Assembly: GCA_011109175.1 (NCBI GenBank)
Contig: RDEW01000016.1
Coordinates: forward strand, 1,113,653 to 1,177,652
Length of the DNA stretch: 64,000 nucleotides
Reading direction: 5' to 3'
Origin: Dicyema japonicum
Lineage: Eukaryota > Dicyemida > Rhombozoa > Dicyemidae
This document shows positions 1,406 to 63,400 of the stretch, in pieces. Below the pieces are notes generated by a model. That model was not told the DNA's origin, made no database searches, and saw only the letters and a list, made by a program, of their open reading frames with translations. The position numbers and the translations under genes are program-made. How positions within the stretch are numbered: the first letter of the stretch is position 1; every line of letters starts with the position of its first letter.

Positions 1406-2886
1406 TTAATCTTGAATTGTATCCCCGATTATCGTTTTCCAATAAAGTTTTTTCCCGTAACAACAGAAAGTCAAATTTATTCTACAATAAAACAGCCGTT
1501 AACCTTATTGCTGGCCACGAAGATTTCAAATGAAGGAAAAACTGAACAGAAACTACTAAAATGAGCATTAAAAGTATTCCCCCAGGGATTGATAGCATCA
1601 AGTATAATTTGAACTGCGAGCTAATTCTAATAATCTCCTTCTTGTCGGAAACGTAAAGACAAAATTCTTTTGAGATTGATTCCATCTTCAATTCACATTC
1701 CAGCACAAAGCAGTTAGTTTGGTTGAAATTATGGTTTTTAGTGATAATGTACGTTCGGTTATTCAGTGGAGTCAAATGCAGGAACCCCTCTGGGCTGACG
1801 TTACACACAAAAAGTTGAAATGATTCAATGGTCGCATATCCAACAAATTTGCCTCTGTTTGTATTTTCAGAAATATTCAAAATAATGTTTTGATGACTTT
1901 GGGGGTTCTCAAACTCAACAAAAATCGTGCAGTAATCGCAGAAAATATCGCAGCACACACTTGCATTTAGTCTGACTGACTTTGTTGATACCTGCTTAAT
2001 ATTTCTAATAAACGGATAAATTGTTCCACTATTCTGATTTATGCCGAATAATCTATTCTCATTTAGTCCGTACATATAAATCTGCCAATTGGCTCACCTC
2101 TCGTATTTATTATGGGTGAAAGTTTCGCTAAAAATATTTCGTTTGAAATCGTTTGATTGGATTTCGCAATCCTAAGAGTTTTATATTTAAACCTCGGGGA
2201 TAGCAGGACTTATGGAAGGATATGTTTACCAAAAGTTCTCCAATAAGTGGTGGACGTCCTCGATCAGCACATAATATTTTTAAAAGATCACTTGTACGTT
2301 GAAACACACTTTCCGTAACATTAAACTTGAGAATGTATTTATCGGAATTTGTCTTTTCGATCTCGGCACTTCCCCAAATTGGCTGTTTTTCCACATAACA
2401 TTTATCGACTCCATTTTGAGGACTGTCGTAGTCATACGGAGTTGGAAGTTGAACCAAATTTTCACCATTTTTTATAAATTTGAATGAAATATAGTTCGGA
2501 TAAAACGTCGGTGGGTTGTTATTCACGTCGAGGATGTTTATTTTGACATTGTGAACTCTGAATTGGGTCTTGGAAGTCGAGCCAACGACGAATTGGATAG
2601 TACAGTTTTGTTTACTTCGACAACGTGACAAGCTTTCTCGGTAAATAGCACGAACTGTGTGAATGATCCCTGTTTTTGGATGAACTGCAAAGTAATCGTT
2701 CTCAATGCTGTCCTCAAGTTTAAAAAACATTTCAATATGGTCGTCTGAGTTGTTAAGACTTCCAACAATCGTCCCCTTTGACTCTTCAAAAATTTCAAAA
2801 CTGTGGTGACTCACCGAATGGACAATAATCAGTAATATAAACATCCTTGTGACTATAAAATTGAATAAATTAGCAATTGAATTCAT
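1406..2886 (-). CDS. Protocadherin-like single-pass adhesion protein with tiny introns
   Basis: The start at 2886 gives a hydrophobic signal segment (residues about 8-26). A first cadherin repeat follows (FEIFEES, PKTGIIH, then the calcium linker LDVNNNPPTF), then a second repeat (DYDSPQNG, ending DRGRPPLIGELLVNISF). After a splice region at about 2080-2200 a partial third repeat (FGINQNSGTI) leads into an extracellular Cys-rich part and one membrane helix (IPGGILLMLILVVSV). A 22-bp GT..AG intron at 1482-1503 joins the helix exon to a short basic tail ending at the stop 1406-1408. The upstream junction is not fully resolved: a single intron of about 100 bp fits the frame, but an extra small exon is possible. 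Cadherins are calcium-dependent cell-adhesion proteins of metazoans, which places the host among animals. Two to three repeats is short for a protocadherin. Confidence 0.75.
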
Positions 2887-9010: not shown

Positions 9011-11378
9011 TTAAATTAAATTATTAACCCCGGCTTCGCCAGCAAGTGGGAAGCCGGCGACCATCAAAGAGCGTGCAGTCCGGACAGGCCGCTCCCAGAG
9101 ATCCTCGACTTTTGCATCCGGTGGTCCAAGGCAGGGAAAAAGGTCTCGAACTACTCTGCCAGCCAGAAAAGGGTGGTGTCCACACCGTAGGCGAGCCAGT
9201 CCGATTCTGATCTTCCTCGGGAGCGATTGTTCCGTTGGACTGATATCCGGGGGGAAGCGCTCCAAGACTTTGTTATATTGAAGTGTCCTAATGGCCCGTG
9301 TTGAGATAAAATCATGGATTCGGCGGGTCCAAGTTGAGTCTTCTTGAGGGGGGGTGATCTTCGACAAGGCTCTTTGTAGGTCAAAGAGGGTCCTGCGTAT
9401 GTATCTGCGGTTATTGTTACTTAGCAAAGCGTGAACTGGGTGATTCGGGTCGAACGACTGCCGTAGGAATTGTAAATTACGCATTTCCAGGTGGTCATAG
9501 AGCGGGAGGATTTTCGACTCCCAATGTAAATGGTCGGTGGGGGTTGACTTTAAACAGCCAGTTATTATTCTGAGCGCCGAGTTTTGCACTTTCTGCAGTT
9601 CTTGAGAAAGGGACAAGGAGATTGAGGGGGCCCAACTTGGTGAGGCGTAGTTGAGTGTAGTCCTGATGAACTGTTTGTAGAGAAGAGTTAAGTTTTCTTT
9701 TTGCTGACCGTTTGAGTGGCCAGCTACTGCCCGTAATATGTTAAGTTTCCGCTTGGCTTTTGTCATTACTTCCTCCACTTGTCTGTTGAAACAGAGTGAA
9801 GGATCGAAGACAACTCCAAGGATCTTCGGGTATTTATTTAAGGGGAGTGGTTCGTCACCCAACGAGAGTGTGGGGTTTAGGTTGAATTGTCTTCGATCGG
9901 TTGTGAACAGGGTAGCTGATGACTTCGAGGTGGAAACACTCATCCAGTTTAAGTTCATCCAGTCGGATAGCAAGTTCAGGTGGTACTGCACTTTTTCGGT
10001 GGCCAGTCGAACATCGCCACTCCTGGATGCGATTACTAGATCATCGGCATATGTCAATAGTAACGTATTTTGGGTTGTTGGGATGTCTTTGACGTAAAGG
10101 TTGAAAAGTGAGGGTGAAAGGACTGATCCCTGGGGAACACCGTTTGGTAGGAGTCGATATCTTGATAGATTTGAATATAGACACGTATGACCCAGTCTTC
10201 CCGAGAGGAAATTTGTGAGCCATGACTTCCATACAGAGGGAATATTTGAAGAATAGATCTTGTTGCAGAGGACCACACGGGAGATTCTGTCGAAAGCTTT
10301 AGTTAGGTCAATAGAGGCCAAGACAGTTCGTTCCGGGGGTTTGCAGTTGTTGAAACCGTTGGAGATGTATTGGGTTAGTGTCAGTAAGTGCGTGGTGGTC
10401 GAGTGTAAAGGACGGAAACCATGTTGTGAGTCGGAGAGGTCGAGGTAGGGGGTGATTTCGTTAAGAATGATCCTTTCGAGGATTTTTGAGACAACAGATG
10501 TTAAGGAAATTGGCCTGAACGAAGAGGGCAAGGAGGAGGCTTTGTTGTTCTTGAGTATTGGGATAATGTTCGACTTCTTCCATAACATCGGGATGAAACA
10601 CCTGTTGATGGAGAATTCGTAGATATCTTTAAGTGCCAAGAGCCCGTTTGGACCGAGGTGCTTTAGGTGGAATATGCTGATCCGATCGGGTCCCGTGGCT
10701 GGTGAGTTTCTTGAGTTTGTAATGAGGTTTTGAACATGACTTATGATACTTCGAATCGTGCCTTTGTTACCCTTGGGGGTTTAGTAATATGAGGTCGATT
10801 TTCTTTATTCATTGGAATATGACTCATTTTGCAATAGTGAGTCATCAAGTCATTTGCCTGGCAGTGGAAATCTTTCGTTTGGTTGTCCTTTCCAAGTCTA
10901 CCTCCATGGGTTGTGCTCGATTCGGTTTGATTTGATTGTATTTCTCTGATAAATCTCCAGAAACTTTGGGGTTTTGATTTTGGATTCAATCGAGAGACGA
11001 AAGTGGACCACTTCTCCTTTTTGAGCTCCGTAATGAGGTGGGTTATCTTCTTGTTTAGGGAAGAAATTTCATCTTGGAGTTGCTGGTTGGTTGTTCGGGA
11101 ACGTTTTAGGCGTCTTCTCTCACAGATGAGATCCAATATTTCTTTGTTGAAAAATAGTTTGTAATCATGGATGAATCCTTTAGGGACGTGCTTTCTATCC
11201 GCCGAAAGGATGGCTGAGTTGAAATGTGCAATGGCTTTGTCTGGAGAGGTAAAATTATTCACAGAGAAGTTTTCCAGCGACGTTTCGACGTCAACCGTGA
11301 AGTCGATCCATCTCGCCCTTTTGTAGTTCACATAGGTTCGCCTCGACATAGTTCGTCCGAAATGCAAGAAGATGTCGA
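9011..11378 (-). pseudogene. Family B LINE: linker and reverse transcriptase
   Basis: After the endonuclease, a basic helical linker (10741-11367; RRLKRSRTTNQQLQDEISSL) leads via one frameshift near 10755 into the RT. A 542-codon stretch (9011-10639) contains FRPISLTSVVSKILERI, LASIDLTKAFDRIS, VPQGSVLSPSLFNLY, the catalytic LLLTYADDLVIASRS, the thumb block TTLNYASPSWAP and a C-terminal RLRCGHHPFLAGRVV motif. All main RT blocks are present, with the YADD Asp pair intact. Confidence 0.9.
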
Positions 11379-15247: not shown

Positions 15248-17635
15248 TCAAAATGATTTTAAAAAATCTAGACTAGGGAATAAATGACGTTTTCTGTAAA
15301 TTTAGATAAAATGATTAACTTTTTGTAAATGTAAACTCCAACAGCAATTAGTCCAGCCGCTATAACAGCAAAGAATAATCCAACTCCCAGAGCTACGCTA
15401 TTCGACTTTTTAGCTACAAATTAAATAAAATTTAAACAGGCAGAGATGTTACCAGTAGAGGCTAAATTGTTAGGTAAAATAGAAACAGCGTGACAACGTT
15501 TGAGTGGTAGTTGATGGTTGAGTTGTTGTGGTCGTCGTAGCTGTGGAAGTCGAAGTGGTCGTTGAAGATATTTTTGAAGTTGTTGAAGTCATTGTTGGAA
15601 CGTCTAAAACACTCAATTAAAAAACATACAATCTCCGACGCAAATAGCGACCTTTTTATTTTTGCATGAATCAGTAATCCATGTTTTATTGGGAAGTATA
15701 GCAACGCATGAAACTAAAAAGTCGATGATTTTTGGTTCGCCGGGAGCCCAGTTTGGTGTGTTCTATAATAAATAAATAACGAGACAGATGGGGTATTATC
15801 CAACCAAGTTGACTTTGTGCCATTCCACAAAATTCTATAGTCTATGTGAAATGTAGAATTAATAAGATCTTCGAAATATTCAAAAACAATTACAATTGTC
15901 GATTTGGTTAAATGTATAAGAATCTGTCTCTTTTATGAGAGTCTGCCCATAATACGCGCAAAGTCTAGTAGAATCGTGATAGCTAAGAGGACGTCCAAAT
16001 AAGGAATATACAGAAGAACCAAGAGTAAAAGAATATGCTGTTTTAGGTTTTTCTAAACATTATTAAACCACAGACCATAAAAATTAGTTGAACAATTAAT
16101 AGTCGAAGGTTCACCTCTGTAGATTTCACGACAGGCAAAGGTTGAGGGTTTGCAAACATCGTTTTTCCATTTCCCAGAGTCGTATTGAGCATAAACACAT
16201 CCTTTATCACTGTTAGAATTAGGATATCCGGAAGCCCAGTTTGTGTATCTCTAAAATAACTATTATAGTAACATCTTTAAATCCATCCCCTCGAACCAAT
16301 ACTTTTTTAACATAAATTATTCCGTAATTCAAACCAATCGTGAATTCGGAATTTTCTTAAGTAAATATTTTTAATAACCCATCACTGCACAATTTTCTAA
16401 ACTGTTACGGGGAACAAAAAGAACGTCACCACGACGACTGCACAGAGTTTTCGCTTCTTTCTGAGTTTGTATAAAATCAAATATTCTAATAGAATACGTT
16501 TCATATTTAATTATCTGGGCAAAGTAATCTCAAATGATATTAAATGTTTACTGTGTTTTCTTTCATTGGTACAATTAGCAGGAACAGCATCCTTAACCAC
16601 AGTATCTAAGGAATCATACTCTAATGTACCTGTTTCACAGATAATATTATTTTCTGCTGTACAATCTTGTGTGCTGAATTCACCAGTTAGGTGACTCCTA
16701 ATAACACAAAGTTCTTTTTGTGGGTGACCAGGTAACCACGGAAGATATGACTGCTTGTAATTTTAACGTATAACCGCATGATATCCTTTAACAGTAATGT
16801 ACTCATTATTCATGTTTCTAATTCCTGTATAAACAAATCCGTGATTTTCAGCTACAAGTAAATATTAGTTTTAACTATTAATAGCACAGTTTTCTAGTCC
16901 ATCGTTAGGAATGAAAACATATCCATTGTGATCATTTTTGCAGATTCGAGAGATATGCTCGTAATCACGACTGACCTTATAAATGTAATACGAGTGTCCT
17001 CTGAATGTGAGAATATCATCGTATTTGACTGAAAAAATATCACATAGTACTATTTATAATTTTATCCGTCGTAATGTTGATTCCGATTGCTGAGATAGAA
17101 TCTATTATGATATTTTTGATAAATTACCATTCTCGCACATGTACAAGGATCGATACAAGCGGGTTATACCTTTCCATTTTCCATTGACAGCACTTATCAT
17201 GGCGCTAGTGTCCTCATATACAAGTCCTGGTTCAAAATTAGTGTATGTCTACATATCATTGTATATTACGAGTATTTTTTCGGTATGAAGTGAGTAAAAT
17301 TGATCATCACCAGTTTTTCTGCCAATACCGATTATACGATCATTTTTCAGTAAACCTTAAAATTTAAATTTAAAAATAAACTAAAAATAAAATTATTTTC
17401 TTTGCCATCCTGAATGTCCACAGCATAGTGATCATTAAAGCCGCATACATAATCCGCCCATAACGCATGTACATTCATCGGACCCAAAAAATATGAGTGA
17501 TTATTGTAGTTGAAAATTCGCGAGTATGGGGCACCTTAAGATATGACATATGGAATTACCAGAAGTCAAGAAAAAAAATAGGAATCCTAAAATCAATTAA
17601 AATTTTATCAAACCGACTAAAAAGTTGAAAAGCAT
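15248..17635 (-). CDS. Type I membrane receptor with four C-type lectin domains, intact copy (637 aa)
   Basis: ATG at 17633-17635, TGA at 15248-15250. Splicing 19 GT..AG introns (21-26 bp mostly, one 27, one 39) leaves exactly 638 codons. Order: signal peptide (MLFNFLVGFLFFFLTSGA), CTLD1 (YTNFEPG, GKWKG, LYMCEN), CTLD2 (YLPWLPGHPQKELC, IICET), CTLD3 (YTNWASGYPNSNSDKGC, GKWKNDVC, TFACRE), CTLD4 (NWAPGEP, WITDSC, AICVGD), a Thr/Ser-rich stalk (about 15475-15600), one membrane helix (VALGVGLFFAVIAAGLIAV) and a short basic tail. CTLDs bind sugars or proteins. CTLD3 keeps a WND-type calcium motif, but its other loop reads YPN rather than EPN/QPD, so sugar binding is uncertain. It is diverged from the other two copies and has no lesion that I can see. 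Confidence 0.88.
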
Positions 17636-17659
17636 TTTGCCAGTTTAATTGTATGCCAA

Positions 17660-17667
17660 TTTATATA
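17660..17667 (-). promoter_or_regulatory. TATA element of the lectin receptor
   Basis: TATATAAA on the minus strand ends 25 bp before the start codon. The surrounding 60-70 bp are conserved with the copy at 25.36 kb, which supports a functional core promoter and a very short 5' leader. Confidence 0.5.
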
Positions 17668-17819
17668 TTCAAAGAAAGCCAAAAATTTGATTTGCGGTCT
17701 TTTATTATTTTAATTTTATTCGATAATCGTGACAGACGTGATAGGATTTTACCTTGATTGATTTTTGAACAAATAGAAATTAAGAGTCAACAATTAAATG
17801 AATTTATAAGCCTGATTGC

Positions 17820-22690: not shown

Positions 22691-22929
22691 GTGTGAAAAT
22701 ATAACAATTATAAATCTACAATAGTTGCCTATAATAATGATGGCTTGCTAAAACAAAAGGTAACCGCAACTTCGTAAAATGAGAAGGTAGATAAGAAGAT
22801 AGGTTATATATTATTTTGTGGTAAAATACTAAAACATAGCTTGTTAAAAATAGAAAAATGAATAGAATCGAATAAGTATTAGTGAAATGAGATAGTAAAT
22901 TTAATGGTCAAAACTTCGGGCTAAAAAAT

Positions 22930-25332
22930 TTAAATAATAAAGAAACTTCGGAAGCTACCAAATGACCTCAAAGATAATGGAGCTGAAAATGAATAACCTC
23001 TTCTGTAAATTTAAAGAAAATGATTAACTTTTTGTAAATGTAAACTCCAACAGCAATTAGTCCAGCCGCTATGACAGCAAAGAATAATCCAACTCCCAGA
23101 GCTACGCTATTCGACTTTTTAGCTGCAAATTAAATAAAATTTAAACAGGCAGAGATGCTACCAGTAGAAGCTAAATAGTTAGGTAAAATAGAAACAGCTT
23201 GACGACGTTTGAGTGGTAGTGACAGTCGAGGGTTGAGTTGTTGTGGTCGTCGTAGTTGTGGAAGTCGACGTGGTAGTTGAAGAAATTTTTGAAGTTGTTG
23301 AAGTCATTGTTGGAACGTCTTTATCATTCAAAAAAAAACTATCTCCGACGCAAACAGCGACTTTTGTATTTTTGCATGAATCAGTAATCCATGTTTGATT
23401 GGGAAGTATAGCAACGCATGAAATTAAGAAGTCGTCACTTTTTGGTTCACCGGGAGCCCAGTTTGGTGTGTTCTATAATAAATAAATAACGACACAGATG
23501 GGGTATTATCCAACCAAGTAAACTTTGTGTCATTCCACAAAATTCTATAGTCTATGTGAAAGCTAACATTTATGAGATCTATGGTTAATCAAAACATTTA
23601 CATTTATTGATTTTTTCGAATGTATAAGAGTCTGTATCTTTTATGAGTGTCTGCCCATAATAAGCGCAAAGTCTAGCAGAATCGTGAAAGCCGAGAAGAC
23701 CACCGAATAAGGAATATACAGAAGAACCAAGAGTAAAAGAATATGCGGTTATAGGTTTTTCTAAAAATTATTAAGCCACAAACCATAATAATCAGTTGAA
23801 CAATTTATAGTCGATGGTCTACCTCTGTTGTTTTCACGACATGCAAAGGTTGAGGGTTTGCAAACATCGTTTTTCCACTTCCCAGAGTCGTATTGAGCAT
23901 AAACACATTCTTTATCACTGTTAGAATCAGGATATCCGGAAGCCCAGTTTGTGTATTTCTAAAATAACTATTATAGTAACATTTTTATTTCCATCCTCGA
24001 ACAAATAAATGTTTAACATAAAATACTCCGTAATTCAAACCAATCGTAAATTCGGAATTTTCTTAAAATAAATATTTTAATAACCCATCACTGCACAATT
24101 TTCTAAACTGTTACTGGGAACAAAAAGAACGTCACCACGACGACTGCACAGGGTTTTTGCTTCTGTCTGATTTGCTTCAAAATCAAATATTCTTATAGAA
24201 TATGTTTCATATTGTATTATTTGGGCAAAGTATCCTAAAATGGTATCCTACCGTTACTTTGTTTTCTCTCATAGCTACAATTAGCAGGAACAGCATCCTT
24301 AACCACAGTATCTAGGAATCATACTCTAGTAGACCTGTTTCACAGATAATATGCTTTTTGCTGTACACTCTTGTGTCTTGAATTCTCCATTTATGTGACT
24401 TCGAATTACACAAAGTTCTTTTCGTGGATAACCAGGTAACCACGGAAGATATGACTGCTTGTAATTTTAAAGTATAACCGCTTGATATCCTTTAACAGTC
24501 ATGAATTTTTTTATATTTGTGATTCCAACATAAATAAAACCATGATTTTTGGCTATGAATTACTATTTATTTGAACAATTTATAGCGCAGTTTTCTAATC
24601 CGTCGTTTGGGATGAAAATATATCCGTTGTGGTCATTTTTACAGATTTGAAGGATATTTTCGTAATCCCGATATACCTTATAAATGTAATACGAGTGTCC
24701 TCTGAATGTGAGCAAATCATCGTATTTGACTATAAATTATGTCACATAGTACTATTAATAAATTTATCCCCTGTAACGTTGACTCCGTTTGATGAGATAG
24801 AATCTATTATGACATTTTTGATAACCATCTCGCATATGTATAAGTATGGATACCATCGGGATACACCAGTCCATTTTCCATTAACCTCATTTATTAGCGC
24901 TCTAGTGTTGTAATATCCAGGTTTTGAACCAAAATTATTGTATGACTACATATTATTGTATAATACGAGTTTTTTGTCAGTATGGAGAGTGGAATATTCA
25001 TTATCCCCATAATATTTCCCAATGCCGATTAAACGATCATTTCTCAGAACACCTTAAAATTAATATTATAATCTATACTGAAAATAACTTTATTTTCTTC
25101 GCTATCTTGAATATCCACAGAATAGTGTTTATCATAGCCGCAGACTTCATCTAACCAGTATCCATATGCTGTTCTTGAAGAAAAGTAATATGAGTGATTA
25201 TTGTAGTTGAAAATTTGGGAGTATGAGGCACCTTAATGTAAGACTTATGAGATTACCAGAAGTCAAGAAACATAGTAGGAATCCTAAAATCAATTTAAAT
25301 TATATCAAACCGACTAAAAAGTTGAAAATCAT
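22930..25332 (-). pseudogene. Four-CTLD receptor, decayed copy (three frame-breaking lesions)
   Basis: Near-identical to the copy at 46.8-49.2 kb with the same 19 introns (start 25330-25332, stop 22930-22932), but its coding length is 7 bp shorter. One difference is an in-frame codon loss near 24505. The others are a 1-bp loss at the end of CTLD1 (24829-24832), a 1-bp loss at the end of CTLD2 (about 24360) and a 2-bp loss in CTLD3 that also brings a TAA into frame (23981-24000). Signal peptide, stalk and membrane helix are still readable. Either a recent pseudogene or a region with consensus errors; three independent lesions favour the former. Relative to the intact copy at 15.2 kb it keeps the same upstream flank. 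Confidence 0.8.
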
Positions 25333-25355
25333 TTGTCAGTTTAATTGTATGCCAA

Positions 25356-25363
25356 TTTATATA
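25356..25363 (-). promoter_or_regulatory. TATA element of the decayed lectin receptor copy
   Basis: TATATAAA on the minus strand lies 24 bp upstream of the start codon, within a flank shared with the 17.66-kb promoter. Confidence 0.45.
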
Positions 25364-25669
25364 TTCAAAGAAAGCCAAAAATTTGATTGTGGTCTAAATT
25401 GCAAAACATTTGCTTTTGTTTTGATTCAGCTAAAATTAAGAAAACTGTTTAATATATTTAAAAAAATACTATTTTTGTATTTTCTGATATTGTAAGCAAT
25501 TTCACAAACTGTCTTTCTGTTGGAAATTTTCAAAGAAAATCTTGAGTCTCAAGATATGAACATTTTCTACGAAACCAAAGTAAAAGATTTTAGTATATTT
25601 AATAGTTATGCGACACAACCAGTTGTAGGTAATCATGTTTTAGCCTCCAGCAGTTTGTCAGTTGTCATT

Positions 25670-33599: not shown

Positions 33600-35255
33600 A
33601 AAAAAAAACTAAAAGATGATAGCAAAGAAAACGATTACGTTGCGAATTGTTTTTAAAGAAGAAAATTCAAATAATAAATGAATCGAACCAAACACCTAAG
33701 CCGACACAAAATTTCTCAGCAAGAAGCATGGAGTTGGATGCAGCACTGTATCAGACATACTTAAAAAAGCTGATATTTATTTGGAATTATTCAACAACAA
33801 CGCAAATTTTGCTAAAAAACGTTTTGACAACAACTGCAAATTTGAATAAAATCACTTTGAGTGGTTCCAGATAGCACGTTCCAAAAACTTTTGTTTGTCA
33901 GAACCAATTATTATCGCAAAAGCCTCAGAGTTTGCTAAAGCACTGTGCGAAAATGATTTTAAAGCTTCCACTGGCTGGTTATGCAGGTGGAAGTCCGTTA
34001 CTCAATCCAGTCGTACTGTATCAGTGGTGAAAAAGCAAATGTTGACAGTGATGTTGTTTCTGACTGAATGAAACGTGTACCTTTTCTAATTGAGGGATAT
34101 CGACCAGAAGATATATTTAACTGCGACGAAACCGGACTATTCTATCGTGCCCTTCCTGATAAAACACTATAAGTAATAGGTAATCATCACAGTGGATCAA
34201 AGAAGTCGGAGGAACGTCTTACTGTAATGCTTGCATGCAGTTCGACAGGAGAAAAGCTAAAGCCAATTGTAATTGGCAAGTCTCGAAAACCCGATGTTTA
34301 AAGATATTAATCTGAGTGAGTTACCTGTTATTTACTGCTCCAACGTTACAGCCTGGATGACATCGAAATTGTTTTCAAAATGGTTGCAAGATGTGAACAT
34401 GCAGATGATGCGCCAGAAACGAAAAATTATTATGTTTTTGGATAATGCAGCATCACATTCACCAAACGTAAAATATTCCAACGTGAAACTCAAATTTCTT
34501 CCAGCTAACACAACGAGTGTCATACAACCTCTGGATCAAGGAATTATTCGGTCATTTAAAGAAAGATACAGAAGACTACTAATGACTCAACTTCTTGCCA
34601 AAATGGACACAGAAACCAATGCGACACCACTTGCAAAAAAATTCTCTCTTGATGCTATCCGGTGGATTAGCACAGCTTGGATGGACGTGAAATCAAACAC
34701 AATCTCCCTCTGCTTTAATAAGTGCGGCATTCCAGTCAAATATATGATATAAACGACAATCCTGAAAACAATTTATGTTCATACCCTCATGAATAGACTA
34801 GTCGATAATCCAATGACAGAAGATGAATTTGTCAACTTAGACTTGGAACTACCCACTGAAAATCCCAAAGATTGGAATCATCCCTAGTTGAGCAATACCA
34901 AACAGTCTCAGCTTCTAAAGATGATGACAGTGACTCAGATTCTGATAAGCAAACAGAGCCAAAACATATAGAGAAATTAACACGCACAAATGTTCAACAA
35001 ATGTTAGACCAAACTTTGCTTGCATTCAAGACCTGCATTACTCGATCCCGTCAACAGACTGATCTATCTAAACAATAAAGCGATTGCTGAATCAAAGCTA
35101 AATACGAGGCAATCCTTATTGACAGATTTCTATTAATTTTACTGTTTCGTTTTTTCGTTATAAGTAAATTGAATGGCTTGTTCAATATACCGGCTTCCCT
35201 CTATACCGGACAATTCTGTCGGTTCCGAGAGGAATCGGTTTAGAGGGGTTTGACT
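33600..35255 (+). pseudogene. pogo/Tigger-type transposase, decayed
   Basis: A CENP-B-like DNA-binding part (EFAKALCENDFKASTGWLCR, about 33930-33990) is followed by the DDE domain: FNCDETGLFYRALPDKTL (first Asp, about 34120), PIVIGKSRKP, VIYCSNVTAWMTSKLFSKWL, IIMFLDNAASHSP (second Asp, about 34428), SVIQPLDQGIIRSFKERYRR (third-acid region). Frameshifts at about 34070 and 34300 and stops break it. The right end CAGTCAAACCCCTCTAAACC (inverted, to 35255) is followed by TA. The left end was not found. Confidence 0.8.
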
Positions 35256-39737: not shown

Positions 39738-42237
39738 ATGGACGCGGGATGGTGTCGACTCCTACTTCTTTCCTTTGGAGATGTCGAAGAAAATCCTGGA
39801 CCAGATCTAGTCATATTACTAATTAACATCAATGGTATCCGAACAAAAATTGCCGAACTACAACGCTTTCTCATAAAACACTAAGTGGATATAGTCACTC
39901 TTTTAAGAGACGGAACTTAACCCACGGCGACCAACTCCGAACCTTCCGGAATACTCTGTTTTAGACAAGACAGAGGTCATGGAAAGGGAGGAGGCCTTAT
40001 TTCTCTACTCAGGAAGCATATAATGGTCGGAAATATCTCGGACGACATCCCGGACCCATCCCGCCAGGACGACACACTGGAACATCTAACTCTAAGAATA
40101 TGTCTACCCTCTATCCGATTGACAGTTATCAATATGTACATACTCCCTCCACCGTCATGCCCCAGCGGCTACAGCCCCGAACTCAAGCGATTCACCAGGT
40201 TAGAAAACACGCTAATTGGCGGTGACCTAAATGCGAAGAGTTCTCAATGGTATGCTGACCAACAACTGGACCAACGGGGAGCCCTCATATCCGACAGTTT
40301 TGACGACTTGATCATTCTCAATAATCCAAGCAAACACACAAGGTCCCCTTCCCGTCGAGGCGACTCCTCTACTTCACCAGACATTTCTTTTGCTGCCCCT
40401 TTTTTTGCGGCTGTTATTTCATGGGATGTTATATACGATACCGACCATAACCCGATCTTCATGAGGATCCAACAAAAACATAAGTTAATGAACACTCCAA
40501 GAACCAATGTGAACTTCACAAAGGCAATGTGCCTTCACACATTTTACCGAACTACACCTCCAGACCTTCCGGATAGAGAACTTAGGATCTATCGACGCTG
40601 CTGTCAAAACCTCAACGAGATTATACTCCGAGCTCGCAAAAGATACATTCCGATGAGTCGTCCTCAACGTCCATCACACCCAATTGATGCTGAAACGCGT
40701 GATCTAATCCAAACGAGAAATAAGCTGAAGAATTTCGAAAGACAATCAGTGGACGTAACTGAAAGAATATCAAAACTGAACAAAGAAATCACGCGGAACA
40801 TCACAAAACACAACAAAGAACGTTGGGAAGCCTTGCTCAGAAAAGCTACGAATAATGCTTCCCCCACTGTATTATTGAAGTTGATAAAGAGGCTCAAGAG
40901 TACTCTCCAGATATAATTGACATCAAGAGCTATATCCAAATCCCAATGACATCATGAAGTACTATGTGAATATTAGTCATAAACCATATTCAATGACCTG
41001 GATGTTCGTTCTGGCAATGGTCGAAGGAATAAATGTCCCAACATGACTTTCTTCGACCCTTCAACGGTGCACTCAGTAATCAGCAAAATGAATAACTCGT
41101 CGTCCCGCGGTTCAGATGACATCTCTATTCTCGAACTAAAACACCTGGGTCCTTTTCGCGACGGCCGCAATAACAAAAATTTTCGACCTCTCAATAAACG
41201 AGAACAAGATTCCGTAAATATGAAAGAAATCTCTGATACACCCATCCTGAAGAAAAACAAACTGCCCGTCCTCCTACCGCCCGGTATCCATCATCTGCGC
41301 CTTATCACGAGTGTTAGAAAAACTGGTCCTTCTCAAGATCCGTCATTTCATAACTTTACCATCTTTTCAACACGGATTCCGCGAAGGACACTCAACAACA
41401 ACTCATCTAACAAAACTGGTTCAATTCATTTCGGACGGCCTGAATACCCAAAATTTACACGAGAAAACCGTGCTAGTCTTAGTGGATGTGGAGAAGGCTT
41501 TTCACTCAGTATCTCGGAAGATCCTTACACAAAAATTTTTACGACGTCGATCCACCCTAAATTCAAGTCATGGTTGGCTAACTTCATCGGCAGTCGAATG
41601 GGGCAAACAACCAAAAATCAAAACCGCGATACCTTCCAAATGGAGTTCCACAAGGATCACCGTTGTCTCCAATGCTTTTCAACATGTTCATCACCGACCT
41701 ACCATCCTTAACCACCAAAAACACAATTCTTCTATTGCATGCGGTTGATATCGTGGTCGCAGTGAAACATCGAAGAATCGAGGAGGCGACACGATCCGTG
41801 CAACACTTACTAAACCAGATGGGTCTTTGGTTCCTGAGAACCGTTTGAATATATCACCAGGAAAGTCACATGTAATGACGTTTACCTCAGCACGATAAGA
41901 TCTATGGGCAACACCACGAATAAAATTGTATGATTCTCCGCTTTCCATTAAGAAGACCCTTTCAATCCTTGTAGTCATCCTGGATTTCCTACTCACATTT
42001 ACCCATCAAGTGGACCTAGTAGCCCCGAGGATCCAAAAGAAAATTGGAATTCTCAAGGCTTTCACTCACTCTCCAGTATCTTCCCGCCCATCGTTAGAGC
42101 TTCTATACAAACAATTTGTTCTACCTAGTATCGAGTACGCCTGTGCTGCATGGATTGCCCCCTTATCAATATTGGCACAGAGCAAGCTGAAGGTTTTACA
42201 AAATCTATTTCTCAGGATTCTATTGAGATCGTCTTAA
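39738..42237 (+). mobile_element. 2A-bearing LINE (family B clade), endonuclease and RT with several shifts
   Basis: ATG at 39738 gives MDAGWCRLLLLSF and the 2A motif. Next come the endonuclease (LININGIRTKIAELQRFL, GKGGGLISLL, TVINMYILPPPS, LIGGDLNAKSSQW, DTDHNPIFMRI), a linker, and the RT (LLPPGIHHLRLI-type region, TTHLTKLVQFISDGLNTQ, VLVDVEKAFHSVS, GSPMLFNMFITDLPSL, then LLHAVDIVVA where YADD should be, and IEYACAAWIAPLS). The catalytic box is mutated. It ends at 42237, where a MULE begins. Confidence 0.8.
39777..39803 (+). other. 2A-type ribosome-skipping motif GDVEENPGP
   Basis: Exact match to the strict D-V-E-E-N-P-G-P form, 13 residues after the initiator Met and directly before the endonuclease. 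The leader between (WCRLLLLSF) is hydrophobic, as in functional 2A peptides. Confidence 0.85.
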
Positions 42238-46345: not shown

Positions 46346-46814
46346 TTTTATGGCACACTCTTCTTCTAAAAGAAGAATAGGGATTACCATCAATCTGGAT
46401 TAAAATCCACTTAATTAGTTGATTTACTCGTTAATTTTCAATCATAAGATAAATTTAATTTAACTCATTAATAAAATGACCCTTCAATTAAAATGGCATT
46501 TTATAGAAAAAATTGTTATAATTTTGAATCATAAATTTGTTTCTTGGTTTAACTTTATTAATATTTGATTAGTTTTTGGGTTTGATGGCAAATAAAATTC
46601 TCTGTTTGGTTCACTAATGTATCATTGATGGCTTTTAAAGCAGAAGGTTAGCCACTTCGTAAAATGAGAAGGTAGATAAGAAAATAGTTTATATATTATT
46701 TTGTGGTAAAATACTAAAACATAGCTTGTTAAAGATAGAAAAATGAATAGAATCGAATAAGTATTAGTGAAATGAGATAGTAAATTTAATGGTCAAAACT
46801 TCGGGCTAAAAAAT
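46346..46814. other. 3' flank of the lectin receptor copy; left edge of the segmental duplication
   Basis: No gene. From about 46630 the sequence matches 22740 onward (shared TTCGTAAAATGAGAAGGTAG), marking the left breakpoint of the duplicated block that contains the receptor copy. Confidence 0.5.
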
Positions 46815-49225
46815 TTAAATAATAAAGAAACTTCGGAAGCTACCAAATGACCTCAAAGATAATGGAGCTGAAAATGAATAACCTCTTCTGTAAATTTAAA
46901 GAAAATGATTAACTTTTTGTAAATGTAAACTCCAACAGCAATTAGTCCAGCCGCTATGACAGCAAAGAATAATACAACTCCCAGAGCTACGCTATTCGAC
47001 TTTTTAGCTGCAAATTAAATAAAATTTAAACAGGCAGAGATGCTACCAGTAGAAGCTAAATAGTTAGGTAAAATAGAAACAGCTTGACGACGTTTGGATG
47101 GTAGTGACAGTCGAGGGTTGAGTTGTTGTGGTCGTCGTAGTTGTGGAAGTCGACGTGGTAGTTGAAGATATTTTTGAAGTTGTTGAAGTCATTGTTGGAA
47201 CGTCTTTATCATTCAAAAAAAAACTATCTCCGACGCAAACAGCGACTTTTGTATTTTTGCATGAATCAGTAATCCATGTTTGATTGGGAAGTATAGCAAC
47301 GCATGAAATTAAAAAGTCGTCACTTTTTGGTTCACCGGGAGCCCAGTTTGGTGTGTTCTATAATAAATAAATAACGACACAGATGGGGTATTATCCAACC
47401 AAGTAAACTTTGTGTCATTCCACAAAATTCTATAGTCTATGTGAAAGCTAACATTTATGAGATCTATGGTTAATCAAAACATTTACATTTATTGATTTTT
47501 TCGAATGTATAAGAGTCTGTATCTTTTATGAGTGTCAGGCCATAATAAGCGCAAAGTCTAGCAGAATCGTGAAAGCCGAGAAGACCACCGAATAAGGAAT
47601 ATACAGAAGAACCAAGAGTAAAAGAATATGCGGTTATAGGTTTCTCTAAAAATTATTAAGCCACAAACCATAATAATCAGTTGAACAATTTATAGTCGAT
47701 GGTCTACCTCTGTTGTTTTCACGACATGCAAAGGTTGAGGGTTTGCAAACATCGTTTTTCCACTTCCCAGAGTCGTATTGAGCATAAACACATTCTTTAT
47801 CACTGTTAGAATCAGGATATCCGGAAGCCCAGTTTGTGTATTTCTAAAATAACTATTATAGTAACATCTTTAAATCCATCACCTCGAACCAATAAATGTT
47901 TAACATAAAATACTCCGTAATTCAAACCAATCGTAAATTCGGAATTTTCTTAAAATAAATATTCTAATAACCCATCACTGCACAATTTTCTAAACTGTTA
48001 CGGGGAACAAATAGAACGTCACCACGACGACTGCACAGGGTTTTTGCTTCTGTCTGATTTGCTTCAAAATCAAATATTCTTATAGAATATGTTTCATATT
48101 GTATTATTTGGGCAAAGTATCCTAAAATGATATCCTACCGTTACTTTGTTTTCTCTCATAGCTACAATTAGCAGGAACAGCATCCTTAACCACAGTATCT
48201 AGGAATCATACTCTAGTAGACCTGTTTCACAGATAATATGCTTTTTCGCTGTACACTCTTGTGTCTTGAATTCTCCATGTATGTGACTTCGAATTACACA
48301 AAGTTCTTTTTGTGGTTGACCTGGTAACCACGGAAGATATGACTGCCTGTAATTTTAAAGTATAACCGCTTGATATCCTTTAACAGTCATGAATGTTTGT
48401 TTTATATTTGTGATTCCAACATAAATAAAACCATGATTTTTGGCTATGAATTACTATTTATTTGAACAATTTATAGCGCAGTTTTCTAATCCGTCGTTTG
48501 GGATGAAAATATATCCGTTGTGGTCATTTTTACAGATTTGAAGGATATTTTCGTAATCCCGATATACCTTATAAATGTAATACGAGTGTCCTCTGAATGT
48601 GAGCAAATCATCGTATTTGACTATAAATTATGTCACATAGTACTATTAATAAATTTATCCCCTGTAACGTTGACTCCGTTTGATGAGATAGAATCTATTA
48701 TGACATTTTTGATAACCATCTTCGCATATGTATAAGTATTGATACCATTGGGATACACCAGTCCATTTTCCATTAACCTCATTTATCAGTGCTCTAGTGT
48801 TGTAATATCCAGGTTTTGAACCAAAATTATTGTATGACTACATATTATTGTATAATACGAGTTTTTTGTCAGTATGGAGAGTGGAATATTCATTATACCC
48901 ATAATACTTCCCAATGCCGATTAAACGATTATTTCTGAGAAAACCTTAAAATTTAATATTATAATCTATACTGAAAATTACTTTATTCTCCTCGCTATCT
49001 TGAATATCCACAGAATAGTGTTTATCATAGCCGCAGACATTATCTAACCAGTATCCATTTGTTGTTCTTGAAGAAAAGTAATATGAGTGATTATTGTAGT
49101 TGAAAATTTGGGAGTATGAGGCACCTTAATGTAAGACTTATGAGATTACCAGAAATCAAGAAACATAGTAGGAATCCTAAAATCAATTTAAATTATATCA
49201 AACCGACTAAAAAGTTGAAAATCAT
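46815..49225 (-). CDS. Type I membrane receptor with four C-type lectin domains, intact copy (648 aa)
   Basis: ATG at 49223-49225, TAA at 46815-46817. Removing 19 GT..AG introns (21-27 bp, one 39) leaves exactly 649 codons. Residues about 1-21 signal peptide (MIFNFLVGFLLCFLISGASY); CTLD1 23-137 (GYWLDNVCGYDKHYSVDIQD, GKWTGVSQ, YICED); CTLD2 154-270 (LPWLPGQPQKELC, IICET); CTLD3 290-410 (YTNWASGYPDSNSDKEC, GKWKNDVC); CTLD4 430-549 (NWAPGEPKSDD, WITDSC); Thr-rich stalk 550-593; membrane helix 600-621; tail 622-648 (KRGYSFSAPLSLRSFGSF). Probably a surface receptor or adhesin for glycans or proteins; ligand unknown. Near-identical to the broken copy at 22.9 kb. The frame stays open upstream of the chosen Met, but this Met gives the signal peptide conserved in all three copies. 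Confidence 0.88.
47047..47055 (-). other. 9-nt microexon of the lectin receptor
   Basis: A nine-base exon (CTTCTACTG) lies between a 25-bp and a 39-bp intron at the stalk/helix border. It is needed to keep phase 1 into the membrane-helix exon. The same exon occurs at 23162-23170 and 15453-15461. Confidence 0.7.
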
Positions 49226-49248
49226 TTTTGTCAAATTACCGATAATTA

Positions 49249-56047: not shown

Positions 56048-59000
56048 GAAATCAATGACTGTTTATGTAATTTGAAAAAGATCTATCAAAATCCAACGGA
56101 CTTGGAAATCAGTCTTGCCAGGTTTGAAGGTATTTAATTCACTAATTCAAGCGATCCTCAACAAATATCAAGAAGATCCCATCCTTTTTCATCCGTACTT
56201 GGGTTGATTGACTTTGAAACTTTAGGAAATATTGTTGCACGTATAATTCAGTATCTAACTGACCCTTCCTCTGACGTTCTTCTAAAGCACTCGTCCTTCA
56301 AATACTTATTCGCTATAATCAAAATATTCAGTGACAAAACTGTGGTTAGGTTACTTCCCCATTCTGTCGACAATTTACTCCCCGTTTTGAGCTTCCTTGA
56401 AGAAATTGACTTCATGGATTTTTCTGTAAGCGGGATGTTTTATCTAGCTCGCCAATTCCCAACATTGTCTGCTCCTCTGGCTTTCCATAATCGTGAAAAT
56501 CCCATTTCACTTCAGCCTCTTTGACGGAAACCTTTCCGAAGGAGACACTCCTCTTTCCCAGCGAATTGTTTTTATGGCTAAAGTGGGGGCAAACGTTATT
56601 ACCTTAGAAATATCTTCTCTCTCGTATGACGAACAGCAGACCGGCGTCTACCTTGCTTGTCCAGTTTCTAACCCGTTCGGATTGTGGCCAGTTTTTGAGG
56701 GAGTTTATGTCCTCCACTATGGAAGTCGTTCAGACTGGTTGGATCTTTTATTTAAGCTAGTTTCGAATACCACGAACACGTGGGAACTTTTGGCTATACT
56801 GAGTGCTCTTTGTGGGATTTTTAAGCAGACAAAAAGGGAGGATCTGCTTACTTACGGTTTCTTTATTATTTACTTTTAGCTGAACAATATTTTGCCATTT
56901 TAAGTACCCCCACGTGTTCTCTGTGTAAACACGAAAACGGGACAGTGAAGAAAATGGCGGTAAAACTTGCTAGCAGGGTTGGGCTTGTATTTTTGAAGCC
57001 ACGTGTTGCTAAGTGGAGGTATATATATGGTAATTCTAGATATCGTCAAAATGTGTTTAAATGGTCTTCAAACGGAGAGTCTGAGTATCTGGAAGAGGAT
57101 TACGACATTAGAGAGGAAATACAGGATATTATCGGTTTTAAGCTTTTATACTATTTAGTCCTTCTTTTGGGTTTTCTAAGTGATTCCTTGCGAATTGTCC
57201 GTTGGTCAGCTGCTAAGGGGTACCTTCAGGTCTCATTGACAGAATTGGCCGAGTTTGCGAGAGACTGCCATTCGAATTGGCTGATGACGTCATTTCCGAG
57301 ATATTTGAGGCGCTTGAGCAAAATCCAATGTATCAAATGTGGCATGGGGGATGTTTGGCTCTGGCGGAAATTGGGAGACGAGGATTGATAATCCCCAAAC
57401 GCTTGGAGACGGCTATTGGGCTTATGGCTAAGGCTTTGGTCTTCGAGGAACGGATGGGGACGTATTCCTTAGGAAATGATGTCCGTGACTCTGCCTGTTA
57501 TGTGATCTGGTCTTTTGTGAGGATATACGACACGACCGCTTTGTCCCCTTATATTAGAGACATGCTGGGGTACGTCTCATTGATTATTGTAGTCTTCTCA
57601 GTGTTGTTTTTCTTTTCGATCGGGAGGTGGTCGTTCGTCGAGCTGCTGCCTCGGCCTTTCAGGAGTTGGTTGGGCGTGAGGTTTTTATAGGGATTCACTC
57701 ATAGGGAGCCTCTTCACCTGTGGATATTGATATCCTGACCACGTGCGATTATTTTGCGGTTAATAACAGTCTCCATTGTTTTTCCGAACTATGGTTGATT
57801 TTTTTGCTTATTTATCAGTCATTTTGTCGGGAAGTACTCGTATTACAGGAGTTTCATGATCGACCACCTTTTCTCCCACAAACTATTCCACTGGGACTCG
57901 ACTATAAGGGAGATGTCGGTCAAGGCACTGAGAATGTTACTGGAGTATGACTGTGATGTCATTATTTCTCGTAATCTTCATTTTCAATATAGGATTGAGG
58001 GAGATTGTCTTGAATCAACATTCCTGTTTGTCCCCTAGCGTTTCTGTGAGACACGGCTCTATCTTGGCTATGGCCGAACTGACAGAGGGTGTTTGGGAGA
58101 ACTTTGGGGGGTTTAGTGAGAATGAAGACGATTTGCTGAAATATGGACAAAATTTGTTAAATAATGTATGACTGGTTATATTTGTAGTTGTTTGATGAAA
58201 ATATTGTGTTTGAAAGGTATGAACTGAACACAGATTCTGCAGGTTGGTCATGTTATTCAAATAGTATGCCTGTTTGTTGGAAAATATGCAAAATTGAAGC
58301 TATTTGGCTTGGAGATGCTTCCACGTGTTTTTGAGTTCCTCCATACTATCTTAAGACACGACAATAAAAAGCTCATAGTTTTCCGATTCCTATATTAAGA
58401 CTTTGTCCGCTGAGACGCTTTCTGTTGTTTATTCTGCTTACTACAGTGATTGGGAGACGGTTCCCGTCGTATCAGGACTTCCAACTCCTGATGAGTTGGT
58501 TGACGGTTATATAACCAACGTCGTGGATACGGTTTGTTCTATTAGAAGGTATTTGGGGGTAATCTCAGGATTGCTGGAATTTTCGGAATCAGGTCGCTTT
58601 CTATGTTGTTGGTGGACCATTTCTTCCACAAACTGATTACTGCCCTGAACTATTCCACAGTTATTACGGAGGAATCGCTCTATCTTGCGGAATGTAGGAG
58701 AGAGGGACTTTGGGGACTTCGAGAGTTTGTTTAATAACTGTATTGGTAGTATTCTGATGCTTGATGTGGCAAAACAACATGTTGATAGGTCCACGTGGGT
58801 CACTGTTGTCGACCACATGCGGGCTTCTTTTGAAGACTATACATATAACATTCACGGTAATATAGGAAATGGGTATTTGTGAGTTAATTTGTAGGCCACG
58901 AGAGACAGCCATTGAAGTTTTGGGGGCAATCATTGTTCGTTTTAGTGAGTTGGTGAGTGAGGAGTTGTTATATGAATTTATTGGACTTTTGTGCTGGCAA

Positions 59001-60447: not shown

Positions 60448-63400
60448 TTAATATCTTTTGATTTTGAATGGGGCCTTAGTTATAGAAAAATCCCCATTTT
60501 TAGCTTCTCTGATTATGTCCTCTACGACATTATTCATAACCTTTTCCAGCATCAGAACTAATCCATTATTCGAATATAATTTTTTGACATTCTACATAAC
60601 ACTTGATATTACTTTCTGATCATTTGAACTATCCTCCATAGCCAATTGCTGAAAAGTTGTAATTGGCTCGTTTTGAATATCGGAGATTAGCTGAAAGAAG
60701 TTGCTTTCACTCATAATACATCTTTCCCCTAATCCTTTGACTCTACCTTATCACAGCAGAAAGAATCGGCAAAATCGTATCCTTTGCTGAAGTCGTCCAC
60801 TCAATGTCTCTTTTCTTTACATCCAAAACTGAACTGAATTTGTTAGTATAACACTCACTTGAAGTAAAGCCACGAATTTATTTTGTGAGGAAATCTTCTC
60901 TCATATTCGATAATCCCCATCGTTCGGTGGGTTAATCTTACGTTTATTTTCCGCACGTCGGGAGGACTGGGTTTTTCGAAATTGGGGAGAATCGGCTTTT
61001 CTTTGAGTTTCATTCTCGATTTTTTCTGGTAATCAATTATAAGGGAAACCATAAAGTTTTTGTCGATTCTTTCGTTTTCGTGGACTCCAATGGATACGTT
61101 CTATTTGAAATAAAGCGGTTACCCTCCCTCCAATAACAGACTCACCTTGGATTATAAATTCCTCCTGATTTCGTTTAACGTTCATTTCGTATTTTTTTAA
61201 ATCCTTACAGTACTTGAGGTACTCTATTCTGTCAGTAATATTGAGGGTGAGGTTAATTTCGTTCAAAATTGCGATATTCTTTGATTTAATTTCAACCATA
61301 AAGACTAGCTTTCCCTTAGGCTTTAGTTTCCCCTCCGACGGAGTTATTTTTAGGACCTCGAGTAACGGAAAAGACTACATTTTGGTCGAAATTCCATAAA
61401 AACATAATTCTGTTTGTATCAGAATTATTTTCAAGAAAAACCAATCTCCTCACCACAGAGTTCACTGGGACGATTCCCACACGAATGTGTTCCGGAGATA
61501 AGCAAACATCCTACAATATAAAAGCTACGAAACCTGATTCGTTGAATTTAAAGGGAATAGACTGGGTACTCCAAAATCTCCGTTTTCGCATGAAATTGCC
61601 ACCGTGTTGTTCATTATTCGTTCGTCGTACCCCACACCAATAAGCCGTGTCACATAATCAGAAGAATCGTTAACGCAAATTGAAATATTGGTCTGCTGCT
61701 TAGAAACCTAATACTGTGTATTTCCTTGCTTCCAAGGGGGAAAAGACCCACCTTAGCATGCAGCTTGAGAATGGAGGAATAGCTCCTTCGGGATTCAAAC
61801 ATTTGAAAACCGGATAATCAAAATACTCCTACAATTATTTGTAAATTACATTTTCGAGTTCTTTAATTATTTCACTGTTAACTTGATAATAGCACGAGTG
61901 AGATCCCCCGTTGAGAATTTCCATGAGTTGTACTGTGGAATCAATTGACCCGATCGGGATTGGAACAAACTGGAAGGATTTCGGAATGCAAGGTAAAGCC
62001 ACGTGTTCTGCAGGGAAGGTTGTCCCAAAAAGATCGATCTATTGTAAAAATTTTCACAAACAAAAAGTTCCCTTCCTTTGTCAATTTTGAGCATCAACGG
62101 AATTTTATGGAAACCCAACGAAAGGTGGTTAAAGTTAAATGTGATTGTCTTGCATTCGTTTGGCAAAAGAATCCCCGACTTTGGTGATACTGTGAGTAAT
62201 CCATTTTCCACGTCGGTAATCTGACATTATACCAGGCAAAACCAGTTTAAGTTCTTGTTGTGTAAAATTGTAAGTATCCGCCCAAAGTTCTGGTTCTATT
62301 TTAAGATCTCTTGGAAAGTAAAGGGACCTTGGATGATGCAAAAGTCAACCATTGGCAATCGAGAACTCCCGGATTGTGAATATCTAGTTGTACCACGGAT
62401 GGATCACCATTTATGGTATTTCCTAGAATATCGAATACAATTCGAGAAGAATCATTAAACTCCACTGTGGGGAAACAGCTGCTTTTATGAAGGATTGAAG
62501 ACTTGTACTCACTTTCCTCGGGACTGATTCTGAGCTGCTCGTTAAAACTTGGATTATTTGACCAGACAAACTCGTGGATCGAAAAAATCATCCATAAAGA
62601 TTTTTTTGTCACATTTGGGAGCAAACTGAGTCCTCGAATATCGGAGACTTGCATGAATGGGTAAGAAACTGATGACTCAAAGTTACATAGAAAATGGAGT
62701 TGGTCATCTTGAGCCAATCCATAAAGATTCTTAAATTTGTAGTATAATTCGAATTTGTAACTCCCAAATGATTTTGCCGCGAATTTTACTTTCAAGAGTT
62801 GACTGCTATGGGGGGTTATACAATTGTCGTAGAAACTCAAACTCACAACTAAAATTTTAATTGGAAACAACAGTAATCTTCATCCTTCAATTTCTTTATC
62901 ATCAATTCATATCCAAATTCACAGTCTCCGTTATTTTCCAGGAGTACGTCACACGTGGTAGATTCATTCATGGAGACTGCTGGAAGTTTATACAAATCCC
63001 GATTACTCTAGAATGTGCATTAAACATTGTACAGTCAATTCTGAGTCACATCCTTCCCCCATCAAGTGAATCTTTTTGACGTACTTTGAGTCGGGGATTA
63101 CAGTATTGTCTTTGGAAATGCAGTAGAATTTGATGTATTTTTCAATTTTTGAGGATCCGGGGATTCGGGGGGTAAAATAAGATTCAAGTGGGATTGTTTG
63201 GTGAGGGAGAATAAATCCAGTAGAAGGGGAAAATTTAAAGTTAGTGCTTTCGAAATTGTCATAATCAATCACAAATCTGTTGACTTATAAGATTACTTTA
63301 ATGTTGATGACGTCACATTCTGGATTTCCAATGTTTTTGAGTTTATTCCCATTCTGAATGTTGGTGGGAAGACAATGGTGTTTGATTTTAGCACAACGTT

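Follow-up and report, generated by a model that had tools for sequence, protein, structure and literature searches.

A multigene family of putative receptors with four C-type lectin domains and a hypervariable outer domain in Dicyema japonicum

Dicyemids, among the simplest of animal parasites, are tiny and live in the kidneys of octopus and squid. To our knowledge, it is not understood at the molecular level by what means they recognise cephalopod kidneys, keep hold there and persist. The most anterior dicyemid cells are described as attaching to renal tissue (PMC6854800). We focused on a 64-kb stretch (hereafter, the window) of contig RDEW01000016.1 in the Dicyema japonicum assembly GCA_011109175.1 (64.67 Mb, 191 contigs), which carries three copies of a gene for a predicted membrane receptor with C-type lectin domains (CTLDs). 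A first-pass annotation had proposed a role in host attachment or recognition, and the question is how far the genes themselves speak for such a role.

Gene copies in the window

Copies A and B were located by repeat search and then aligned with the region 46815-49225. As annotated, the three copies lie within 34 kb; all are on the minus strand (A, 17635-15248; B, 25332-22930; C, 49225-46815).

46815..49225, minus strand: gene C, complete coding region with 20 exons, 19 introns of 21-27 nt and a product of 653 aa (GT-AG intron modelling, Pfam, frame control)
15248..17635, minus strand: gene A, intact paralogue with a product of 643 aa, intron number (19) and phases as in C (GT-AG intron modelling)
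22930..25332, minus strand: copy B, with 97.8% identity to C across 2605 aligned positions, frame broken in the assembly by small deletions
22738..25334, no strand given: B side of a block duplicated or converted between B and C (C side, 46626-49227), from the start codon to ~190 nt beyond the stop
17636..17700, minus strand: 5' flank of A, ~60 nt nearly identical to the 5' flank of B (25333-25395), the body of B matching C

After removal of 19 GT-AG introns (21-27 nt) from each, A and C had one open product, and the intron phases agreed between them at 19 of 19 positions. The products had been given as 637 and 648 residues and were modelled here as 643 (A) and 653 aa (C), a gap presumably due to splice choices. 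The coding frame of A and C is real, since it contained no stops (26 and 65 in the other two frames) and the pN/pS of A/C substitutions was 0.56 in frame versus 1.13 and 1.19 out of frame; the overall A/C dN/dS was 0.50. Gene C and its family are real. The intron lengths of both genes, the assembly size and the mean GC content of the window (36.6%) are consistent with published values, that is, a median dicyemid intron of 27 nt (PMC6543705) and a D. japonicum genome of 67.5 Mb with 36.7% GC (PMC6736024).

The annotated 19 tiny introns per copy held for A and C, and the frame of B is interrupted by exonic deletions. Compared with C, the exons of B lack 1, 3, 1 and 2 nt, and no uninterrupted frame was found in this assembly. 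These deletions are inseparable from assembly error. As a control, four chaperonin (CCT) genes of the same assembly were modelled against each other's distant sequences, by which some breaks may be alignment artefacts, and three of them carried one frameshift each, one with a stop too (C53:263400-265500, C181:714150-716150, C137:1319950-1322050 are the frameshifted genes). Conserved genes thus probably contain indel errors in this assembly, and an isolated frame break does not count as evidence for a pseudogene here; for the same reason, we withdrew the interpretation of copy B as a proven pseudogene.

Within the window B is a mosaic, with a C-like body and an A-like 60-nt upstream sequence. 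The bodies of A and B differ by ~14% despite their near-identical ~60-nt upstream sequences, and the sequence upstream of C is different.

Several other features surround the receptor copies. Retrotransposon pieces lie near them at 9011-10780 (minus strand) and 39921-40916 (plus strand), with matches to reverse transcriptase (E 8.6e-32) and endonuclease (E 1.8e-7), and a DDE_1 transposase fragment at 34273-34752 (plus strand; E 1.8e-33). The neighbours of the cluster include open frames with matches to tubulin-specific chaperone D at 57217-57690 (plus strand; E 3e-41) and to CFAP65 at 62301-62879 (minus strand; E 9e-9). An open frame at 2128-2886 (minus strand) had a sub-threshold FAT4-like/cadherin match and is followed by one at 1482-2093 (minus strand) that contains a hydrophobic stretch and matched no Pfam family; together they are possibly a reduced protocadherin-like gene.

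Domain architecture and ligand-loop residues

The product of gene C is divided as follows.

49114..49225, minus strand: putative signal peptide, ~residues 1-20, exons 1-3, hydrophobic (sequence and hydropathy)
48721..49113, minus strand: CTLD1, residues 21-135, membrane-distal and hypervariable (variability comparisons; CTLD identity by profile)
48197..48618, minus strand: CTLD2, residues 155-271, conserved (Pfam E 1.9e-7)
47718..48160, minus strand: CTLD3, residues 284-408, YPD in place of EPN/QPD and W-K-N-D displaced by one (Pfam E 1.9e-6)
47229..47690, minus strand: CTLD4, residues 418-548, EPK at the loop, the WND position occupied by other residues and a WND string further upstream in the domain (Pfam E 6.9e-10)
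46994..47228, minus strand: Ser/Thr-rich stalk, 58 residues, 65% S/T
46922..46990, minus strand: predicted membrane helix, best 19-residue Kyte-Doolittle mean 2.91 (hydropathy)
46815..46921, minus strand: predicted cytoplasmic tail, basic, with an SFGSF motif common to several family members

Sequence and hydropathy supported the signal peptide, single helix and short basic tail in both A and C, and each product, with its hydrophobic signal peptide at the N-terminus and its one C-terminal helix, fits a single-pass type I membrane protein. The Thr/Ser-rich stalk is found in A, B and C (56-58 residues, 60-67% S/T) and in the C62, C132 and C148 members (54-61 residues, 50-67% S/T); it measures 21-23 residues in the C117, C134, C87 and C44 members and is not a family-wide trait.

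The CTLD profile search that the annotation had called for returned Pfam Lectin_C in the whole product at E 1.1e-21 (C) and 8.1e-22 (A), with three stretches each, and Lectin_C was matched in all six family members scanned (best E 2.3e-23). When the domains of C were scanned singly, CTLD2, CTLD3 and CTLD4 scored above the Lectin_C cut-off and CTLD1 below it. Among five CTLD1s, three reached 16.8-18.3 bits (cut-off 22.6) and two, including that of C, which has only two cysteines, gave no match. A profile of eight CTLD1s retrieved solved structures of the PLA2 receptor (E 2.1e-12), DEC-205 (2.7e-9) and mannose-binding protein (4.3e-7), and aligned almost over its full length with the CTLD2 profile (probability 95.5). 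The annotated number of four tandem CTLDs is therefore correct, three recognised by Pfam and a divergent CTLD1 by its family profile, which retrieves CTLDs of known structure despite the sub-cut-off Pfam score. The eight members share 18 invariant CTLD1 positions, which form its fixed scaffold.

The best matches of CTLD2-4 among solved structures were collectins and selectins (SP-D, MBP, E-selectin). These proteins bind sugar via EPN/QPD and WND residues, which are missing here at the aligned positions: at the ligand loops, no domain in any of the 22 rows of the family alignment carried EPN/QPD or had WND in register. The CTLD2 loop reads HPQ, QPQ, YPR, NPQ or NPT, or is without proline; that of CTLD3 is Y-P-x in 21 of 22 rows, x being D in B and C and N in A; and that of CTLD4 is E/Q-P-x, x never being N or D. 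At the WND position, CTLD2 has F-x-x, CTLD3 has W-x-N-D displaced by one (exceptions, C44 and C144) and CTLD4 has W-x-x (F in C132). Off-site, the strings do occur: 18 of 22 rows have WND in the segment preceding the CTLD4 loop, and 5 of 22 have QPD in the linker that leads to CTLD2. Canonical Ca2+-dependent sugar binding is thus unsupported, and assignment to the canonical lectins of this kind was rejected on motif; the proteins may still bind glycans in a non-canonical way.

The annotation had also likened the protein to macrophage mannose-type receptors. The mannose receptor family (MRC1, MRC2/Endo180, PLA2R, LY75/DEC-205), to which the PLA2 receptor and DEC-205 belong, has N-terminal cysteine-rich (CysR) and fibronectin type II (FNII) domains, 8-10 CTLDs and an endocytic motif in the tail. 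The likeness stands for the tandem CTLDs on a single-pass type I protein, but the proteins described here have four CTLDs, no canonical Ca2+/sugar residues at the loop and a short tail in which, as extracted, an endocytic motif was mostly not recognised, and a Pfam scan of A and C at E <=1 recovered neither CysR nor FNII, its sole matches being Lectin_C and, in C, a weak one to TMEM154. Across the six scanned members, two families other than Lectin_C appeared, in one member each and weakly (E 0.0078 and 0.0098). With no loop motif in 22 rows and CysR/FNII not found, membership of the mannose receptors or of the sugar-binding lectins is unsupported.

NPxY, FxNxxY and acidic dileucine motifs were absent from the 22 tails as extracted, of which that of C78 was misplaced and those of C44 and C87_1741 were nearly absent. 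YxxPhi occurred in 4 of the 22, all from the C159 subfamily, and one of the four also fits an ITIM-like pattern. The tail motif, approximately S-S-F-G-S-F, is repeated in several subfamilies, and no known sorting motif was recognised in it.

The family across the assembly and the variation of CTLD1

A search of the whole assembly with protein C gave at least 112 matched segments. Family counts are lower bounds, because 68 of the 99 first-look candidates were scored. At least 22 full-length places were found, three in the window and 19 outside; the 29 regions taken from outside also included three partial copies (C13, C111, C135) and seven other CTLD genes, which came from the Lectin_C search of the assembly and are only weakly similar to the receptor family. 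A vertebrate-type telomere pattern (four exact repeats) was present at one place only, C127. No relatives beyond this genome came from single-sequence and profile searches of a protein collection, a result that says little since these searches need shared short words.

Six of the 22 models (A, C, C117, C87_1590, C134, C159_831) are free of frameshifts and stops. The remaining 16 copies are interrupted in the models of this assembly; alignment to a distant template may have created some of their breaks, and frame-level claims on them are weak. In seven copies the 4-10 apparent breaks exceed the chaperonin control rate, yet dN/dS in CTLD2-4 of the C87 group is low (0.25-0.30), so the multiply broken copies either lost their frame recently or suffer from poor assembly. 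Protein identity to C is 39-76% in five other members that are uninterrupted or nearly so. C117 and C115 may be alleles, as they are collinear over ~8 kb at 93-98%. In five subfamilies, dN/dS was below 1 in 14 of the 15 CTLD2-4 entries, a substitution pattern that shows purifying selection on the predicted proteins. As judged from their sequences, the 22 full-length places are a multigene family of predicted type I membrane receptors, two of them possibly allelic.

The four domains vary to very different degrees. Alignment columns variable in at least three of the five subfamilies numbered 38 of 119 in CTLD1, 6 of 123 in CTLD2, 2 of 125 in CTLD3 and 1 of 131 in CTLD4. When nucleotide identity was compared in 200-nt blocks, CTLD1 lying within the first 400 nt, identity over these 400 nt fell short of that at positions 600-1799 by 1.5 (B/C) to 18.2 points in 16 of the 17 pairs compared within subfamilies. 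The pair C1_2270/C159_733 had the reverse pattern, its first 400 nt being more alike by 15.5 points. The variation in CTLD1 sits in the segments between its fixed scaffold positions. By codon counts, with codons near frame breaks masked, dN was highest in CTLD1 in all five subfamilies.

C62 subfamily: dN 0.198 in CTLD1, maximum of the other domains 0.087
C148 subfamily: 0.196 and 0.064
C117 subfamily: 0.062 and 0.012
C87 subfamily: 0.198 and 0.036
C159 subfamily: 0.222 and 0.082

The nonsynonymous rate of CTLD1 was 2.5-21.8 times that of CTLD2-4 in all 13 pairs tested (p <=0.0084 each), these being 13 of 31 within-subfamily pairs that are not independent of each other. A significant excess of the nonsynonymous:synonymous ratio in CTLD1 was limited to 5 of the 13 pairs; A/C was borderline (p 0.05), and B/C had no such difference. 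Over the five subfamilies, dN/dS of CTLD1 was 0.57, 0.60, 0.66, 1.38 and 0.68; these ratios, below 1 in four of the five, do not demonstrate positive selection on CTLD1, and CTLD4 exceeds CTLD1 in dN/dS in two, on few changes. Since dS was also highest in CTLD1 in four of the five subfamilies, older variants, recombination or conversion explain part of its divergence.

The exceptional pair was further compared by domain. C159_733 and C1_2270, located on different contigs, had dS 0.000 and dN 0.018 in CTLD1, and dS of 0.65, 0.82 and 0.37 in CTLD2, CTLD3 and CTLD4. Counted from the model start, positions 0 to +432 contain 7 differences, compared with 18 in the 50 nt before the start and ~9 in every 50 nt over positions 450-999. 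The CTLD1 tree places the two as sisters (98/96), a clade that CTLD2-4 reject (log-likelihood lower by 141.9; p-AU 2.6e-65, a value that is descriptive only because the pair was picked after the data were seen). This comparison shows, at the level of the assembled sequences, a near-identical ~430-nt CTLD1 block common to two otherwise diverged paralogues. An assembly chimera would require two breakpoints near domain borders within one gene. It is the one clear CTLD1 transfer seen.

Most of the recent duplicates have only the length of a gene in common, plus 2-656 nt on the 5' side and ~75-220 nt on the 3' side (1-2 kb compared), with the exception of C117/C115. DNA searches with CTLD1 regions found one orphan CTLD1 place, at C87:2031249-2031565, where the 5' portion of a C117-type gene is present from ~360 nt upstream to ~330 nt inside, including most of CTLD1, and then stops. 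With this single place found, a silent archive of CTLD1 cassettes is not claimable.

A proposed variable module on a constant scaffold

We favor, with a probability of roughly 0.6, the interpretation that the family combines a variable recognition module with a constant scaffold, as putative surface receptors whose outer CTLD has been exchanged at least once. The conserved CTLD2-4, stalk, single helix and short basic tail would form the scaffold that carries the membrane-distal CTLD1, and the CTLD1 segments between the fixed scaffold residues would have been diversified. CTLD1 may be renewed by gene-sized duplication and ectopic gene conversion, and may contact a changing ligand, most likely a protein or a non-canonical glycan, at the host-parasite surface. 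The constant part would keep CTLD1 away from the membrane and couple it to the cell via the tail. A recognition role is more plausible than it was from the architecture alone, because CTLD1 is hypervariable and seems to have been exchanged once.

It is possible, though rather unlikely, that the proteins are endocytic nutrient receptors resembling the macrophage mannose receptor, which capture and internalise host-urine glycoproteins. Lu et al. 2019 list ten multicopy clusters in D. japonicum and place the macrophage mannose receptor among those tied to endocytosis, with nutrient uptake as the suggested role (PMC6736024). The tandem CTLDs on a single-pass protein would fit this role, as would the PLA2 receptor and DEC-205 as best matches of the CTLD1 profile. 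The canonical Ca2+/sugar motif is missing, however, from the ligand loop of every domain in 22 rows; NPxY, FxNxxY and acidic dileucine were absent from the tails as extracted (the tail being poorly reached in C78, C44 and C87_1741), with YxxPhi confined to the four C159 tails; and nutrient capture alone does not predict a hypervariable outer domain.

The published cluster also bears on the claim that this family had no description. Like the family studied here, it is multicopy, dicyemid and named after a CTLD receptor, and it is likely, by inference, the same family, which has thus probably already been counted in print (PMC6736024). Gene models were annotated there by Swiss-Prot matches, the word 'lectin' is absent from the main text, and the domain architecture, the missing sugar motif, the hypervariability of CTLD1 and its exchange are described here and not in the passages of that paper that we consulted (PMC6736024). 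In the open-licence literature searched, we found no description of the architecture or of CTLD1 variation in dicyemids, and this part of the claim probably stands. New here are the hypervariability of CTLD1 and the near-identical CTLD1 block in diverged paralogues on different contigs.

CTLD1 could also be a spacer drifting under relaxed constraint in a family without a special recognition role, an explanation that we regard as doubtful. The two cysteines of the CTLD1 of C, its sub-cut-off Pfam score and a dN/dS that is below 1 but raised in most subfamilies agree with relaxation. It accounts poorly for the 18 positions that are invariant in eight members with the variation lying between them, and for a ~430-nt block that is nearly unchanged at two otherwise diverged loci.

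A surface coat, antigenic variation or a decoy, in which CTLD1 varies for escape and not for binding and the interrupted or partial copies serve as templates, seems improbable. The constant scaffold with a variable exposed tip, the one CTLD1 transfer and the existence of partial copies (the C87 5' piece ending inside CTLD1 and three others) point in this direction; against it, the frame breaks are possibly assembly or alignment error, and the DNA searches gave a single orphan CTLD1 place. That haplotype copies and sequencing errors have inflated the family and its diversity is very improbable: C117 and C115 could be alleles and three of four chaperonin genes are frameshifted, but A and C are intact, the five other (near-)uninterrupted members are no closer to C than 76% in protein identity, dN/dS is below 1 in nearly all CTLD2-4 entries, and errors would not gather in CTLD1 of five subfamilies.

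The interpretation of a variable module on a constant scaffold has parallels in the sea urchin 185/333 and snail FREP systems, which, in the accounts of them that we consulted, are likewise multigene, with a diversified part and signs of conversion. The proteins are unrelated, and the variable part here is one CTLD of a four-CTLD membrane receptor. A tentative extension is that the repertoire might be renewed somatically or evolutionarily, with gene conversion moving the outermost CTLD as a cassette between dispersed paralogues and partial copies, so that individuals or lineages could each present the cephalopod host with a distinct recognition (or antigenic) signature.

If the favored interpretation is true, CTLD1 should differ among individuals and host species while CTLD2-4 stay constant, and binding should occur through the CTLD1 loops without Ca2+. 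The published D. japonicum genome stresses reduction, and some 20 likely surface receptors with an exchangeable hypervariable tip would then be a notable expansion.
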